A DNA stretch of 39,807 bases. It comes from a virus. The position numbers and the translations under genes were made by a program. Positions 15,242 through 39,715 of the stretch are shown here, one piece after another (the first letter of the stretch is position 1; every line of letters begins with the position of its first letter). The DNA is taken from positions 1 through 39,807 of the IMG/VR virus record IMGVR_UViG_3300008110_000299; one strand, 5' to 3'. The notes under the pieces were generated by a model that saw only the letters and a program-made list of their open reading frames with translations, had not been told where the DNA came from and did no database searches.

Positions 15242-17302
15242 ATGGATTGGGTATACGACATTGAGACATACCCCAACTGCTTCACCTTCACAGCCGTATG
15301 TGCAGACAACTCACGCACTCATGTGTACGAATGCTCGACACGAAAGAATGATGTGTCGCAATTGTTTGAGTTCTTAGACATGTTGCATGACAAGAAGCAC
15401 AGGATGGTGGGCTTTAACAACAAAGGCTTTGACTATCCAGTGCTGCATGCTTTGCTTGAAGTGAGGGCTAAAGCTGTCACAGTGTCGGGCAAAGCTGTTG
15501 CCAAGAAAGCATACAAGGTTGCACAAGACCTCATCTCTGTACAAGCTGAGCATAACAATGCTCGTTTAAAAGAGCATATAAAGCAGATCGATCTATTTAA
15601 GATACATCACTTCGACAACAAGGCACGAGCCACTAGTCTGAAGATGATTGAATTTAATATGAAGTCTGACAGCATTGAGGACTTGCCATTCCCTGTTGGC
15701 ACTGAGCTTACCGACAGTGAGATTGATGTGTTGCTTAAATACAACATGCATGATGTTATCAAGACGCTCGACTTCTACAACATATCATTGAACGCCATCC
15801 GGTTTCGTGATGAGTTGTCAAAGAAGTACAAGCGTGACTTCACCAATCACAATGATACAAAGATCGGCAAAGACTACTTCATCATGCAGCTTGAGAAGAC
15901 AATGCCAGACTCATGCTACAAGAAAGACAGTACTGGTAAGAAGGTTATTAACCAGACTAAGCGTCCATTGATTGCCATCAAAGACTGCTTGTTCAGCTAC
16001 TATGACTTCCAGCGTCCAGAGTTTCAGGCAATCTTTGAATGGTTCAAGAAGCAGACCATTACTGAAACTAAGGGTGTGTTCTCTGACATTGCAGAAGACA
16101 AGCTTGAGCGAGTGGCGATGTTTGCTGACATGAACATCATGCGTAAGAAGTTTAAGGCAGAGCAGATAGACGAAGAGCTTGCTGTGTTTAAAGCTGCTTA
16201 CCCTGCTGGCTGGATTGATAAGGTGGAGTTGAAGGCCAAGAAGAAAGGCCAGCCTGTCTATTCCTACTGGTACTGCTGGCATGAAGCTGAGACATTGAAT
16301 GTCATGGTTGATGGCTTTCGCTTTGACTTCGGCACTGGTGGCATTCATGGCAGCTTGTCATCATGCATCGTAGCTGAGAGCGATACTCACCAGCTTATTG
16401 ATGCTGATGTTAGCTCTATGTATCCGAACATTGCCATTGCCAACAGGGTGTATCCAGAACACCTCACTGACAGGTTCTGTGACATCTACAAGGATGTGTA
16501 CGAACAGCGTAAGAGCTACCCCAAGGCTAGTGCTGAAAACGCTATGCTGAAGCTGGCATTGAATGGTGTGTATGGTGACAGCAACAACCAGTACAGCCCC
16601 TTCTATGACCCTCAATACACCATGACCATCACCATCAACGGACAGCTTAGCCTGTGCCTGTTGGCTGAGAAGCTGTTGACTATTGAGGGCTTGTCGTTGG
16701 TACAGGTCAACACCGATGGTGTCACTGTGTTGTGTCCACGCAACATGATGGACAGGTACAACACCATCTGTGAAGCATGGCAGCAGCAGGTAGGATTGCA
16801 ACTTGAGTATGCCAACTATTCAAAGATGATTATCCGTGATGTGAATAACTACCTTGCCTTCTACACAGATGGTAAAGTTAAACGCAAGGGTGCTTATCAG
16901 TATGAAGGATTGGGCTGGCATCAAGATCAAGGCGGCTTAGTCATCCCTATGGCAGCTGAAGCAAACATGATTTATGGTACAGACATTAAAGATTTTGTAC
17001 AAAACCATAAAGACATGTACAATTTCATGCTGAGAACAAAGGTGCCACGCAATAGCAAGCTTATGCTGGTGATGGATGATGGTACTGAAATACAACAGCA
17101 AAACATTTGTCGTTACTACGCTTGCAAAGATGGTGGTAAGCTGGTTAAAATCATGCCAGCATTGATTGAGGGTGGTGAAGATAGACGGTTGTCAATTGAC
17201 AGCAGTTGGAATGTTAAGACATGCAACAACATCAAAGACTTCGGCAATGATATTGACTATGATTATTACATTGCAGAAGCTGAGAAGCTTGTTGTACAAT
17301 AG
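15242..17302 (+). CDS. DNA polymerase, family-B-type, 686 aa
   Basis: Template-directed replicative polymerase. The N-terminal 3'-5' exonuclease domain has D6/E8 in VYDIETYPN and a second acidic region VGFNNKGFDYPVL. The palm has motif A DVSSMYPN (D389), motif B KLALNGVYG (K437, N441, Y444, G445) and motif C NTDGV (D492). These are family B motifs (DxxSLYP, KxxxNSxYG, DTDS) rather than family A ones, with Gly in place of the usual Ser in motif C. Shorter than cellular PolB. It follows the helicase and precedes SSB and exonuclease genes. I am sure it is a polymerase; the family call is strong but motif-based. Confidence 0.85.
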   Translation: MDWVYDIETYPNCFTFTAVCADNSRTHVYECSTRKNDVSQLFEFLDMLHDKKHRMVGFNNKGFDYPVLHALLEVRAKAVTVSGKAVAKKAYKVAQDLISVQAEHNNARLKEHIKQIDLFKIHHFDNKARATSLKMIEFNMKSDSIEDLPFPVGTELTDSEIDVLLKYNMHDVIKTLDFYNISLNAIRFRDELSKKYKRDFTNHNDTKIGKDYFIMQLEKTMPDSCYKKDSTGKKVINQTKRPLIAIKDCLFSYYDFQRPEFQAIFEWFKKQTITETKGVFSDIAEDKLERVAMFADMNIMRKKFKAEQIDEELAVFKAAYPAGWIDKVELKAKKKGQPVYSYWYCWHEAETLNVMVDGFRFDFGTGGIHGSLSSCIVAESDTHQLIDADVSSMYPNIAIANRVYPEHLTDRFCDIYKDVYEQRKSYPKASAENAMLKLALNGVYGDSNNQYSPFYDPQYTMTITINGQLSLCLLAEKLLTIEGLSLVQVNTDGVTVLCPRNMMDRYNTICEAWQQQVGLQLEYANYSKMIIRDVNNYLAFYTDGKVKRKGAYQYEGLGWHQDQGGLVIPMAAEANMIYGTDIKDFVQNHKDMYNFMLRTKVPRNSKLMLVMDDGTEIQQQNICRYYACKDGGKLVKIMPALIEGGEDRRLSIDSSWNVKTCNNIKDFGNDIDYDYYIAEAEKLVVQ

Positions 17303-25176: not shown

Positions 25177-25205
25177 AAAGCCAGCTTAGTTGCTGGCTTT
25201 CTTTT
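25177..25205. terminator. Bidirectional intrinsic terminator
   Basis: AAAGCCAGC (25177-25185) and GCTGGCTTT (25192-25200) form a 9-bp stem with a 6-base loop, with T-runs on both strands (CTTTTT after it on the +, TTTTTC on the -). It lies between the convergent rightward early/middle genes and the leftward late operon, whose last gene ends at 25205. Confidence 0.93.
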
Positions 25206-28200
25206 TAGCGTCTAGTTGCTAGACCACCTCTTGCAAGCTTGGGAGTTATCTCCCTCACCTTCTGCAATGATATCTTTCGTTTGTCTTGCGCTTTTGCAGA
25301 TGCAGGATAACCAGCATCTGTTGCTGAGAAATCATCAAGCACTTCTCGCAGCTGCCTGAGATTCTGAGCTTTTTGTTTAGCTCCTATGCCGTCAAGAATA
25401 TCAGCAACCCTTGGAAGTTCTTTAACAATATCACCATATTCAATCATTTGATCTATAGTAGATTGATACTGTTGACCTGTGCCAGCACGAATAGCACCTT
25501 TAGACATGCTCATGTACGAGTTCATCAGATCACGAAGACTTGTGTACGACATGTAAGCAAGCTTAGCAGCTTCTTTTGGATTCTTTGACTCAACAGTTTT
25601 CTTTATATACTCTTTTGTGACATCACGATCTTCTAAGATTTCAGCTTTTGTTTTGATGCCAGTTAGAGCTTGATTGAATTGCTCATTTGAAAACTCACGA
25701 TCTGTTGACACACCTTTCAGCGTAGGATTTCTTCCTTTGACACGAAGCTTGTTAGCCTCAAGCAGCATGTCTTCTGTCTCATTAAAGCCAGCACGAGGCA
25801 ACGATATAGGACGAACAACATCAGGCGCACCAGTGATGGCACGAATGATAGTGTTCATATCTTTCTTATCATAGTTACCAGTACTCATGTTAATTCGTGA
25901 GAACATGTAATCAGCATAAGGAATCTCTGTATACAGATAGTTCTGAGGATTGCGACCACCGAATGTAGCAGCATTAAATCCAAGATTCAAATCTTTAGTG
26001 AACGATGGTGCGCCAACATACATCTCTGCATGAGGGGTAGTGTGCTGTGATGGGTCAAAGAAACCAGACTTCTTAAGCCTATCAATATTCTCAGTGGTGC
26101 TGCCGTGATACAGCCGCATTGGTGGAACATCTTTGTACTTCTCACGCAATTGTTCAAGCTTAGCTTGTAACTTAGTAGCCATACCTTTTGCATCAGCAAG
26201 TTGCTCAGGATTTTTAGGTGAAAGTTCAACACCTGTTTTTGCACGATACTCACCAAGCAGCGTACCAAGTACTTCATCATCAACAGTTGCAAAGTTTAAA
26301 TCTTTACGCAGTCTAAGGAACGAGTCTTCACGCTTGTTCTTAATCTCAGCAATAATGTTATTACGCTGAGTAGTATTTGTTGTACGAACTTGTTTATTCA
26401 GATCACCAGACAATACCTGTTCAACTTTATCCTCAGCTAGGCGTGGCCTACCAAGTGATTTAGTTGGTGCTATCACTTCACTCAACAAGTTTCCTTCATC
26501 ATCATAGAAAACTTCGTCAGTCAAAGACGCAGCACTATCGTCTGTCTTCTTACCAAACGGATTTGCTGGCATCTCATTCCATTTAACACCAGCAGCTTGA
26601 CCAGTATACGCATGAGCAGTCTGCATATAGTCATCGTAGTTGGCAATCTTCCAGTTCTTTAGGAATGCAGCATCATAGTTCTCAGCCATCAGCTTCTCAC
26701 CAGCAGCGTACTGATCTGGTGTGAATGTGTTAGTGGATGGAATAACTTCATCAAGTTGCTTAGAAGCATCATCAAGCGGATTGGGCATAGGAGCGGTTTC
26801 AACAGCGGCAGCAGGGGTAGGCATAGCCTCTTCCATTTGACGCGCTATAGGGGCTTCTGGTGGGGCTGGTGATGGTTCAACAACAGGCTGCTTGGCAACA
26901 GTCTTCTTAACGGTTGGGATGGCTGTAGTTGTTGGAGCAGCTACAGGTGTAGATAGATTCTTGTTGAGAATGTTATCAATTACCGATTCATTCATAGTAC
27001 CAGAAGGGGCATTCATTGTTCTGAGCTTAGACAAGAAGCCTTCAACTGGAATGTTAGAGGCTGCTTTACCGGCAAGCTTAGACGCAACCACACCACCAAC
27101 AGCAAACCTTAAGTCACCAAGCATTGCCTTATATGCGTCAACTTGCATATAGTCATTGGCTTCTTCAAGCGTCTTACCTTGATTGTCTTTAGCGTAGCGT
27201 TCATTGATAACCTTACGCTCATCACTGGTAAGCTTATTAAATTGCATCTTCTTAACACGAAGAAGATCGTCACTCATAAACTTAGCATCGGTAATGTCCC
27301 GTGCTATGCTAGTCATTTCGCTAACAGAATTACCAAGCGCCATCTTCTGTTCTGTTGGGCTTAGTTTCTGATATCGCTCATCACTCATTGCCCGTCTAAT
27401 TGTTTCAATAACTAATGGGTTTGCCGTTTCAACAAAGGCACGATCATAGCTCTTGTCACCAGACGAAGGACCATACAGCTTGTATGGGTCAATACCAAGT
27501 CTAACGATTTCAGATTCAGCAGGAGTCTTTGCTGGAGTTTCACGGACACCAACCAAGCTGTAGAAGAACTCACCTTCTTTGTACACTGGACCATCACGCA
27601 AGCGAGGAACAGCTTCAGGCAAGTTCTCTTTAAGGATTGGCAGCTTGCTTTGAACACGCTGAGCGCCAGCTTCAACCAACGTAGGAACAGGCATTCCCAT
27701 AACTGTCTTATCACCAGTGATGACATTAGGGTCACGCTGGATAGAGCCTTCCTCACGGAACAAATCAAGAAACTCATAGGCACTCTTGAATACAAACGGC
27801 TGTGAGAATCGTGCAGTGAAGTCACCCAATACTTTACCAATTGCAATCTCAAGCTTATCTGCGTCTTTCTCAGAAGACACAGCGGCGAATACCTGATCAA
27901 GTAATTGAGCTTGTGTACCAGCTGGCATTTTCATACCAACAATGGCTTCAACCATTTCAGCTGTCTTTGGCTCAAGGCCAAGCTTGCGTTTGGCTAAGAA
28001 GTCAGCAACGGCAAGTGTTGGTCCAAGCGGGAAGATTGAGCGAGTATCATAAGTACCACCATCATCCTTCTTCATATTAAACCAATCAGTGTCTTGGTTG
28101 TTTAGACGATAGTCATACGCAGCAGCAAGCGCTGCCGTACCAACAATACCTTTAGCAATGTTCTCTTGACCTTGACGAATCAAACCATCACCAGCATTAG

Positions 28201-29329
28201 AGCCAGAGGCTTTCATAAGTGCGCCACGATAGAGGTCTTCCACGCCAGAGGCTGCACCAAACACACTATACCTATACTGAAAGGCAATAGCATTAGACAT
28301 AAAGCGTGGGAAGGTGACAAGTAAACTACCACCGGGAAATTCAGCGGCCTTAACAAATAGATTACCGGCTGCTTCCGCACCAGATTCAAAGGTTTCAATA
28401 CCTTTCTTTTGCACCTTCGGTGTGTACGAGAAGGTTGCCTTCAGCGTTTCGTCTGTAGCTTGTTGCAGGATGGACGCAGGAATTGCTTTGCCTTCACCAA
28501 TTACCTGATACATATCTAAACCAGCACGGCGCATGTGCTTCTCAACAGCAGCGTTGAAGATTGCTTTACGGAAGAAAGCATCCTGTGCCACGTTTAATGT
28601 GTTAAACACTTGAGCAGCTTTAGAAAGTTCTTTGGTGCTAGACTCTTGTGTGGCGCTTAACAAATTGTTACGCAGAGCAGGATTGTGCTGAAGCAAGTTG
28701 TTCGTCACTTCAGTAGACAAACCATTCTTAGCCATGTAGCCATACACGCTGAATGCGTCACGGAAAGTATCACCAAGACTACTCATTGCTGTGTCAATAC
28801 GCTTACCGCTGGCAGCACCATCTAGTGTGCGACCAACAGTGTACATTGCGCCCTCAATCAACGATGCTGCTGAGTTGTAGGTAAGGCCGACTGTTGTGCC
28901 CATGACGTTACGCACTGTAGTGCCAATGCCGCTAACAACAAATGCTTTTGATTCACGCTCAAGGGTGCGTACACCTTGACCAATTCGACCAAGAGCAGAT
29001 ACATATTCATCTGGCTTGTTAAACAACCCATCGACAATCTTAGCAGCTTCAGGGTCAATCTGAGTCATGCGATTAAGAATCTTAGACGCAGCAGAATATT
29101 GCTGCATCACACGAGCAGCATCGGAAACAGTCATCAAGTTTGCTTGTGCAAATTGATCAACACTCAGTCCTTCTCTACGGATGGCTTGTTCGAGAACAGC
29201 ATCGTCAATGGTGTCTAGATTTGAGAAGACGCTGGCGATAGCGTCACTTGTTTTCTGGTTTGGTTTTAGACGGAAGGTTGGGTCAGCATCAATGACATGC
29301 ATTGCCACCCGTACAGCACGAGCAGACAA
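25205..29329 (-). CDS. Large internal virion (ejection) protein with ART-like segment, 1374 aa
   Basis: Last gene of the late operon, in the place of podophage internal core/ejection proteins. Residues about 1-700 are helical with amphipathic or hydrophobic patches (SGIGTTVRNVMGTTVGLTY; GIVGTAALAAAY), suiting a protein ejected with DNA. A Pro/Ala-rich linker spans about 780-880. Near residue 1073, LYHGSTTENID, GFFDPSQH, APSFTKD and LYTEI (H1075, E1135) resemble the H-x-E type ADP-ribosyltransferase fold found in polyvalent phage proteins; this is tentative. The start (TTG 29329) has no good ribosome binding site, unlike every other gene here, and joins the preceding frame if one T is added (see findings). 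Confidence 0.7.
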   Translation of the reverse strand: MSARAVRVAMHVIDADPTFRLKPNQKTSDAIASVFSNLDTIDDAVLEQAIRREGLSVDQFAQANLMTVSDAARVMQQYSAASKILNRMTQIDPEAAKIVDGLFNKPDEYVSALGRIGQGVRTLERESKAFVVSGIGTTVRNVMGTTVGLTYNSAASLIEGAMYTVGRTLDGAASGKRIDTAMSSLGDTFRDAFSVYGYMAKNGLSTEVTNNLLQHNPALRNNLLSATQESSTKELSKAAQVFNTLNVAQDAFFRKAIFNAAVEKHMRRAGLDMYQVIGEGKAIPASILQQATDETLKATFSYTPKVQKKGIETFESGAEAAGNLFVKAAEFPGGSLLVTFPRFMSNAIAFQYRYSVFGAASGVEDLYRGALMKASGSNAGDGLIRQGQENIAKGIVGTAALAAAYDYRLNNQDTDWFNMKKDDGGTYDTRSIFPLGPTLAVADFLAKRKLGLEPKTAEMVEAIVGMKMPAGTQAQLLDQVFAAVSSEKDADKLEIAIGKVLGDFTARFSQPFVFKSAYEFLDLFREEGSIQRDPNVITGDKTVMGMPVPTLVEAGAQRVQSKLPILKENLPEAVPRLRDGPVYKEGEFFYSLVGVRETPAKTPAESEIVRLGIDPYKLYGPSSGDKSYDRAFVETANPLVIETIRRAMSDERYQKLSPTEQKMALGNSVSEMTSIARDITDAKFMSDDLLRVKKMQFNKLTSDERKVINERYAKDNQGKTLEEANDYMQVDAYKAMLGDLRFAVGGVVASKLAGKAASNIPVEGFLSKLRTMNAPSGTMNESVIDNILNKNLSTPVAAPTTTAIPTVKKTVAKQPVVEPSPAPPEAPIARQMEEAMPTPAAAVETAPMPNPLDDASKQLDEVIPSTNTFTPDQYAAGEKLMAENYDAAFLKNWKIANYDDYMQTAHAYTGQAAGVKWNEMPANPFGKKTDDSAASLTDEVFYDDEGNLLSEVIAPTKSLGRPRLAEDKVEQVLSGDLNKQVRTTNTTQRNNIIAEIKNKREDSFLRLRKDLNFATVDDEVLGTLLGEYRAKTGVELSPKNPEQLADAKGMATKLQAKLEQLREKYKDVPPMRLYHGSTTENIDRLKKSGFFDPSQHTTPHAEMYVGAPSFTKDLNLGFNAATFGGRNPQNYLYTEIPYADYMFSRINMSTGNYDKKDMNTIIRAITGAPDVVRPISLPRAGFNETEDMLLEANKLRVKGRNPTLKGVSTDREFSNEQFNQALTGIKTKAEILEDRDVTKEYIKKTVESKNPKEAAKLAYMSYTSLRDLMNSYMSMSKGAIRAGTGQQYQSTIDQMIEYGDIVKELPRVADILDGIGAKQKAQNLRQLREVLDDFSATDAGYPASAKAQDKRKISLQKVREITPKLARGGLATRR

Positions 29330-29343
29330 ATCACTTTGAATCT

Positions 29344-30426
29344 TTAATCAGTTAATGCAGTGGCAGGGTCAATCTCATCTAAAATCCTACGACCTTCTTG
29401 CTTGTTAAACTGAGACACAAGCTCATCCATATTTTGTGAAATAGGATCAGCAACCATTCTCTCAAACTCTGTGACAGGAGCGTTAGGGTCTTTGGGTACT
29501 TTAGCCTTGAGAAGCTTTTCACTAAACTGTTCAGCGCCAGACTTACCGCCGGTTATAGCAAGAGCGCCACGGCCTTCAAGGAATCCACCAACACTACCAA
29601 ACAATGCTGCCACACCTAGCTGTGCAGGGTCAAGGTCTTTTGGCTCTTCACGCATTGCCTTAGCAACTTCTTGCTTCTTCTTTTGTTCAATTACGTTTTG
29701 ACCAACACCAAGACCAGCCTCTGTAGCTGTAGTGATAGCAGTGATGCCAGTAGGTGTAAGCAAGCTAGCAATCTTAGACTTGGCAGCAGCCTCACCAGCC
29801 TCACCAATGATGGATTTAGTGGCAACTTTACTTGCTTCTTTAACAGCAGTTTTCTTCAAGCCAGTAGCAACACCAAAACCAATGTAGTTTGTCAGGTCAG
29901 TCAATGCTGCTTTAGCAATGTCCACATATGGACCAACACCGGGTTGACCACCCTTGCTGCCAGCACTTGCAATCTCATCATACAGACGATTACCAAGTGC
30001 CAGCTTCTCTTGATCTGGCAAGGGAGAGTTTCGCAGCTTGTTCAGCGCAGCAACATTAGAGAATGTATTCCATTCTTCACCACGCATGTTAGCCATGAAG
30101 CTGTTAACAAACTCTTTCTTGTCAGTACCTTCTTTGTATGTGGAGTTCATTGCCACTTTAGAATAGTCAGTGATGACCTTAAAGATTTCGGGATTGCTAT
30201 ACAACTCATCGTAAGTAAACTTAGGCTTGTTGCGTTCAGCTTCAGCTTCTACGCGAACCTTCTGAGCAACATCATCCCTACGGAATGGCTTTGCCATTGT
30301 GCCAAAAGCTGGCTTAGTTAAATCAACTTCGGGTGCGGGAGCAGGTGGCTTTGCTGGAATTAAATCAGCATAGTTATCTGCACCACCAGCTTTAGCAGCG
30401 GGTATCAAATCAGCATAATCTGCCAT
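29344..30426 (-). CDS. Virion protein with YADLIP repeats, 360 aa
   Basis: Starts by TAATG overlap with the preceding gene. The N-terminus repeats YADLIPA twice (residues 4-10 and 19-25) before a Pro-rich linker, then a helical region and a hydrophobic stretch (GVATGLKK, LLTPTGITAITTATEAGLGV). Such repeated DLIP-type motifs occur at N-termini of large phage internal proteins. It ends 14 bases before the 1374-aa gene, and the two may be fragments of a single ~1740-aa protein. Probably a virion component ejected with DNA. Confidence 0.65.
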   Translation of the reverse strand: MADYADLIPAAKAGGADNYADLIPAKPPAPAPEVDLTKPAFGTMAKPFRRDDVAQKVRVEAEAERNKPKFTYDELYSNPEIFKVITDYSKVAMNSTYKEGTDKKEFVNSFMANMRGEEWNTFSNVAALNKLRNSPLPDQEKLALGNRLYDEIASAGSKGGQPGVGPYVDIAKAALTDLTNYIGFGVATGLKKTAVKEASKVATKSIIGEAGEAAAKSKIASLLTPTGITAITTATEAGLGVGQNVIEQKKKQEVAKAMREEPKDLDPAQLGVAALFGSVGGFLEGRGALAITGGKSGAEQFSEKLLKAKVPKDPNAPVTEFERMVADPISQNMDELVSQFNKQEGRRILDEIDPATALTD

Positions 30427-38560: not shown

Positions 38561-39715
38561 TCAGCGAAAAACAGTGGCAGTAATAAACTCATTGTCTGAG
38601 GGATTTTCTGTTAACTGTCTACAGATAATTCTTAGGCTACCTGCGGCTAATCCGTTAACAGTAAATACCCTTGACGCATTTTGCAATATTTGCATTGACG
38701 CTGAATAATTTGCGTCAGGCATTGCAGTAGTAAAGTTAATTGTGTAATCACCAGTTCCGTTATCCGTAATACTCGACACATTCCCACTTGCGCGAATCGC
38801 CACAGTGCCAGTGCCGTTGAAGTTGACCCATGCGCGGCAACCGTAAGCCGTGGCAACAGAGCCGTAGCCTGAGTTGAATTGAAGAAGTCCTGCGGCGGTT
38901 AAACGAGCTTGTTCTGTACCACCAGCCGTATCTCCGCTTGTACCGCCTGTGCTAAATGCTAAATACCCAGTGCTGGAAGCAATCCTTGTTGTGTTTGCCG
39001 AACCCAGTGTTGCGGAGCCGTCTTCAAAAACAATGGATGTCAATTGCCCAGAAGTTCCTGAACGAGAAAAACGACTAGCCGCAGCAGCCGTGCTTCTAAT
39101 ATCCAGTGTTACTGCTGGCGAAGTAGTCCCAATTCCCACATTCCCGCTGACCGCTGCCAAATTAACCCCGGTGTTGAATGTCGTAGACCCAGTTACTGTC
39201 CCGCCTGTCAGTGGTAGGGCGTTGGTCAGCGAAGTGAGGGTGTAGTATTCAATCGTCACCAGATCGCCAGCAGTTGCTGCGTTTGCCAGAGTGATTGTGG
39301 TTCCGTTGGTGGCTGTGAAGTCAGCGTTGCCCAGCCTTGCACCGTTGCGGAACACCTGTACGAAGCCGGGGGTGTAGCTGCCAGCCGAAGCAAACACAGT
39401 CTGTCCAGCCGTGGCAGTCAGGTCAGTTGAACTCAGGAACGCAGTGTTGCCCGGTGAGGACGAGCCAATCACTGGCAGACCTAAGTACAGCACAGCAATG
39501 TTGTTTGTCCCTGTCGGCGGGGCTGGGCTGAACGTCAGGGTTGTACCGATGACGGAGTACAGGTTGGGGTTCTGCACCACGCCACTGATGGCGACCATGA
39601 TGGAAGTTGTGCTTGCTGGAGCGTATGTCAGCGTAAAGGCAGTGGTTGTGCCGTTACCAGAGAACTGATCGAACGGAAACGCTGCTGTGGTTGGCTCTGC
39701 GCCGATGTAGCTCAT
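38561..39715 (-). CDS. Tail fibre protein, 384 aa
   Basis: Starts MSYIGAEPTTAAFPFDQFSG, the conserved start of many environmental phage tail fibres, with an N-terminal repeat domain (TAFTLTYAPASTTSIMVAIS, GFVQVFRNGARL). Middle TGGTVTGSTTFNTGVNLAAV and GNVGIGTTSPAVTLDIRSTA are the GIGTTSP fibre-shaft motif. The C-terminal domain is beta-rich (TGTVAIRASGNVSSI). Likely a shaft protein of a host-recognition fibre. ATGA overlap with the upstream partial gene. Confidence 0.85.
   Translation of the reverse strand: MSYIGAEPTTAAFPFDQFSGNGTTTAFTLTYAPASTTSIMVAISGVVQNPNLYSVIGTTLTFSPAPPTGTNNIAVLYLGLPVIGSSSPGNTAFLSSTDLTATAGQTVFASAGSYTPGFVQVFRNGARLGNADFTATNGTTITLANAATAGDLVTIEYYTLTSLTNALPLTGGTVTGSTTFNTGVNLAAVSGNVGIGTTSPAVTLDIRSTAAAASRFSRSGTSGQLTSIVFEDGSATLGSANTTRIASSTGYLAFSTGGTSGDTAGGTEQARLTAAGLLQFNSGYGSVATAYGCRAWVNFNGTGTVAIRASGNVSSITDNGTGDYTINFTTAMPDANYSASMQILQNASRVFTVNGLAAGSLRIICRQLTENPSDNEFITATVFR

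Follow-up and report, generated by a model that had tools for sequence, protein, structure and literature searches.

A gene for a large virion-module protein, whole in related phages, is interrupted by one missing base in an uncultured phage record

The window, which is the whole stretch of DNA analysed here, is 39,807 bases long and corresponds to a linear virus record in IMG/VR from an uncultured, probably marine phage; given that its long relatives measure 54-60 kb, the 39.8-kb record probably lacks part of the genome. Two open frames adjoin on its minus strand. The first (30426-29344) encodes 360 aa from an ATG start, ends in ATALTD and a stop, and corresponds to the N-terminal part of a protein of ~1,740 aa. 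The second (29347-25205) lies one base out of register, is open for 1,380 codons beginning LKIQSDLSARAVRV, and has as its first start codon a TTG at 29329, giving 1374 aa. The upstream frame is closed by TAA at 29346-29344 and the downstream frame is preceded by TGA at 29350-29348; the two overlap by four bases (29344-29347), with one codon shared between the stops. The minus-strand junction as a whole (29344-29350) is one base shorter in the window than in its relatives, and it is the missing base that creates the TAA. A first-pass annotation of this DNA had interpreted the two frames as one large internal virion protein split by a one-base frameshift, and the split was borne out, with coordinates, frames and peptides exact and the relatives continuous.

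Two further details of the layout required revision. The second piece had been described as having a TTG as its only start and no Shine-Dalgarno (SD) sequence. The TTG is indeed a poor candidate, since its duplex with the anti-SD (-2.3 kcal/mol) equals the background, which we defined from 82 internal start-like codons (median -2.4, best tenth at or below -5.7 kcal/mol). What had been missed is an in-frame ATG at 29302-29300, located 27 nt past the TTG and about 42 nt past the stop, with an SD-like GGGTGG just upstream (29300-29317, minus strand) and a duplex energy of -7.0 kcal/mol, which is within the best tenth; this is a possible internal or re-initiation start. Coupling through ATGA or TAATG had also been ascribed to almost all other late genes, which goes too far: the nine neighbouring minus-strand junctions comprise three overlaps of 1-4 nt, one overlap of 11 nt and five gaps.

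The relatives used to evaluate the junction were 22 distinct IMG/VR contigs from 22 samples that cover it, and these were found in a viral contig collection by protein searches, first with the two pieces separately and later with a profile. All 22 have one uninterrupted frame across the junction, the opposite of the separate proteins with the same junction that the first-pass annotation had named as the outcome counting against a split gene. Over the junction stretch they share 46-100% aa identity with the intact copy L003, and they align across it without a break, so the continuation in the second piece is not due to chance. Complete ORFs among the relatives are mostly 1,724-1,776 codons long, with two shorter ones (L060 and L067) of about 1,100. 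Among the long relatives the closest is the IMG/VR contig 3300042542_000678 (G003; 59,458 bases), which carries the locus (L003/L049) as one frame of 1,753 codons, with an aa identity of 94-95% to the first piece and 83% to the second. A single ORF of 1,745 aa is present in both G003 (L003) and contig 3300044630_000214 (L002), and the first piece matches residues 1-358 of the former at 94-95% identity. In both contigs this is the same gene, at these aa identities and with the same neighbours as in the window, the difference being that their ORF is uninterrupted and has one base more at the junction. The segment at the break is strongly conserved, with P352, A353, T354, A355, L356, T357, D358, K360, Q362, D364, S366, A367 and R368 invariant in nine relatives, which argues against it being a harmless linker. 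The contig of the nearest relative of all, L001 (93.8% nt identity), begins past the junction.

To determine how isolated the lesion is, all gaps between the window and G003 that were not divisible by three were listed. Only the gap at 29345, which has identical flanks, shifts the frame of conserved coding sequence without being compensated; the others were compensated nearby, lay outside genes or fell in the first 270 bases, which are repeat-like and could not be aligned. The idea that frame errors are generally frequent in this record was rejected on these grounds. A second copy of the shifted junction was not found when the viral collection, from which records very close to the window may be missing, was scanned for the exact flanks with 0-3 spacer bases; the only matches to that pattern were two fused copies.

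Both pieces are under purifying selection. Compared to L001, the second piece has a dN/dS of 0.096 over 1,234 codons, with differences by codon position of 32/22/147. Relative to L003, dN/dS is 0.12 for the first piece and 0.07-0.09 for the first 600 codons of the second, and rises to 0.25-0.30 in later parts (0.25, with a dS of 0.96, for codons 900-1374). Together with the relatives, these values delimit a faster-evolving C-terminal part at approximately 25205-26500 on the minus strand, inside an extension of ~630 aa that is described below. As judged from these codon comparisons, the second piece is under strong purifying selection. A decaying pseudogene was ruled out by the dN/dS of about 0.1, and a chance ORF by the conservation of 1,380 codons across relatives. 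With a second piece that shows no decay, the break, if real, must be very recent.

Four origins for the split had been proposed at the outset: an assembly error, a true mutation, a programmed -1 shift and re-initiation. Programmed -1 (or +2) ribosomal frameshifting would account for two frames that overlap and continue each other, as these do. However, no in-frame heptamer of the X-XXY-YYZ type was found in the last 300 nt, the only such heptamer there being an out-of-frame CCCAAAG at 29496, which upholds the earlier statement that no slippery site is present; in addition, the -1 frame is closed by the TGA at 29350, leaving one codon for a slip, and not one of the 22 relatives uses two frames. 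With the slippery site absent, a one-codon window and a layout that is not conserved, we consider programmed frameshifting to be effectively excluded. A conserved split, coupled genes and conserved re-initiation were likewise rejected because the relatives are all fused. A different proposition is that the split is real and tolerated in this phage, with re-initiation at the TTG (29329) or the ATG (29302) yielding chains of 360 and ~1,365-1,374 aa that assemble together. The fair SD-like match at a start about 42 nt beyond the stop and the selection that persists on both parts are compatible with this. Nevertheless, the SD-like DNA is coding in the fused relatives and is thus not an adaptation, the TTG has only a background-level SD, and no relative has the split, so that we regard re-initiation as improbable. 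The specific version with a genuine shorter junction in the population and two chains (360 and ~1,365 aa) made through re-initiation at 29302 is very improbable; were it true, the two-chain phage would constitute a natural experiment indicating that the protein tolerates a cut near residue 360.

This leaves an assembly error or a true mutation. The locus is one gene with a single one-base break, most likely attributable to a consensus error or a chance recent mutation rather than to a new mechanism. The gene would encode a mostly helical virion-module protein of ~1,740 aa and is interrupted in this record by the loss of one base near codon 360. As to the cause, we favor, with reasonable though not full confidence, the view that the assembled consensus of this environmental contig is in error, since a living phage population would hardly have a broken form of a conserved virion protein as its consensus. 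Indel errors in short-read data usually fall in long homopolymers. The lost base lies outside any long homopolymer and no other such error was found in the 39.8 kb, and both the site and the clean remainder of the record count against a consensus error. A real recent mutation ranks second as a cause and is possible, if somewhat doubtful. In its fullest form, which we consider unlikely, one base was truly and recently lost in the sampled phage, or in a substantial fraction of its population, and the gene is left damaged, in defective genomes or in a lineage that has not yet been purged. Such a recent loss would be in keeping with a single lesion downstream of which there is no decay, at a site without a long homopolymer, in a window with no other frame error. 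Conversely, the segment is strongly conserved in all 22 relatives, and a broken virion protein should vanish fast from a phage population, making it unlikely to be the consensus. The finding is an ordinary one, in that the gene is whole in every relative examined and has a one-base break in the window. In annotation, both ORFs should be recorded as one interrupted gene, and not as two virion proteins or as a frameshift-dependent gene.

The interrupted gene is the last of a minus-strand late module, following tail fiber-like genes and genes of 668, 172 and 466 aa, and it converges on the ribonucleotide reductase side, which is the arrangement of HMO-2011-type phages, a group described in PMC6918029 and PMC9038755. 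The neighboring 668-aa protein is homologous to HMO-2011 phage1322_25. A profile built on the core of the relatives to detect distant homologs matched proteins of Caudoviricetes sp. ctYwJ313 (2e-79), Roseobacter phage CRP-2 (gp44; 6.6e-27) and Puniceispirillum phage HMO-2011 (HMO-2011_22; 1.1e-24). In the two cultured phages the homolog is a single ORF, of 1,128 aa in HMO-2011 (phage1322_22, ADW08437.1) and 1,121 aa in CRP-2, and both phages share the order of a ~700- to 1,000-aa gene, small genes, a ~500-aa gene and the large gene, converging on the ribonucleotide reductase module. These homologs are distant in sequence and lack the ~630-aa C-terminal extension. The core homolog in the assembled genome of ctYwJ313 (MW202701), UOF80713.1 (1,218 aa), has the same synteny and is also a single ORF, which stops at the KGGLATQM motif of the core without the extension. 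Thus, kinship to the large virion-module protein of HMO-2011-type phages is evident from both profile and gene order. A single ORF is characteristic of all the relatives but not of the window record as assembled; since that exception is the lesion itself, it does not exclude the kinship.

The label of internal virion protein given in the first-pass annotation is plausible from gene order and from the HMO-2011-type kinship, but no domain match shows it. Searches of Pfam, PHROG and PDB sequences gave no significant relevant match for the large protein, and specifically none to any solved structure or any established family of ejection proteins. A DNA-level search of a phage collection, a protein search with the 360-aa piece and a search for a host or prophage among cellular genomes returned nothing useful. 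The T7-type internal virion (ejection) proteins are gp14-gp16. The large protein resembles them in its placement after the tail genes, its very large size and its mainly helical prediction, although the latter is of low confidence, and no sequence or domain match to them was found. The core is predicted to be nearly all helical, at very low confidence (mean pLDDT 41.5). On the grounds of gene order and of kinship to HMO-2011-type phages, it is plausible that the ~1,740-aa protein is a putative internal virion or ejection protein. Its wider relevance is that a virion-module protein of this size, absent from Pfam and PHROGs, is common to a group of uncultured phages and has relatives, each a single gene, in the abundant HMO-2011-type phages.

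The long form of the protein consists of a core of ~1,115 aa and the C-terminal extension of ~630 aa (L003:8269-10158). A KGGL-type motif closes each of these parts, and L060 and ctYwJ313, which are shorter, end at the first such motif. The presence of the same motif at the core boundary and at the end of the extension suggests that a C-terminal signal was copied and the extension attached behind it as a module. Within the extension, at approximately 25900-26130 of the window, is a conserved pattern, [YF]HG...PSFT...PYADY, reminiscent of ADP-ribosyltransferases. That resemblance was unsupported by a fold search with a medium-confidence model of the C-terminal 381 aa, which gave no match with E <= 0.001.

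Several other differences between the window and G003 were observed. The DNA of G003 is about 88-96% identical over much of the window, yet the polymerases of the two are unrelated: at the same place the window has a 686-aa family-B-type polymerase (15242-17302; phrog_1252) and G003 a 570-aa polymerase (L037:16495-18207; phrog_17, 'DNA polymerase I' families), which amounts to a swap at one site. At the start of the window, positions 1-1350 align to G003 (L037:921-2481) in several overlapping, out-of-order blocks, as though short segments had been repeated or rearranged. Lastly, window positions 39188-39715 span both ends of the G003 contig, an alignment that suggests that this contig is circularly permuted.
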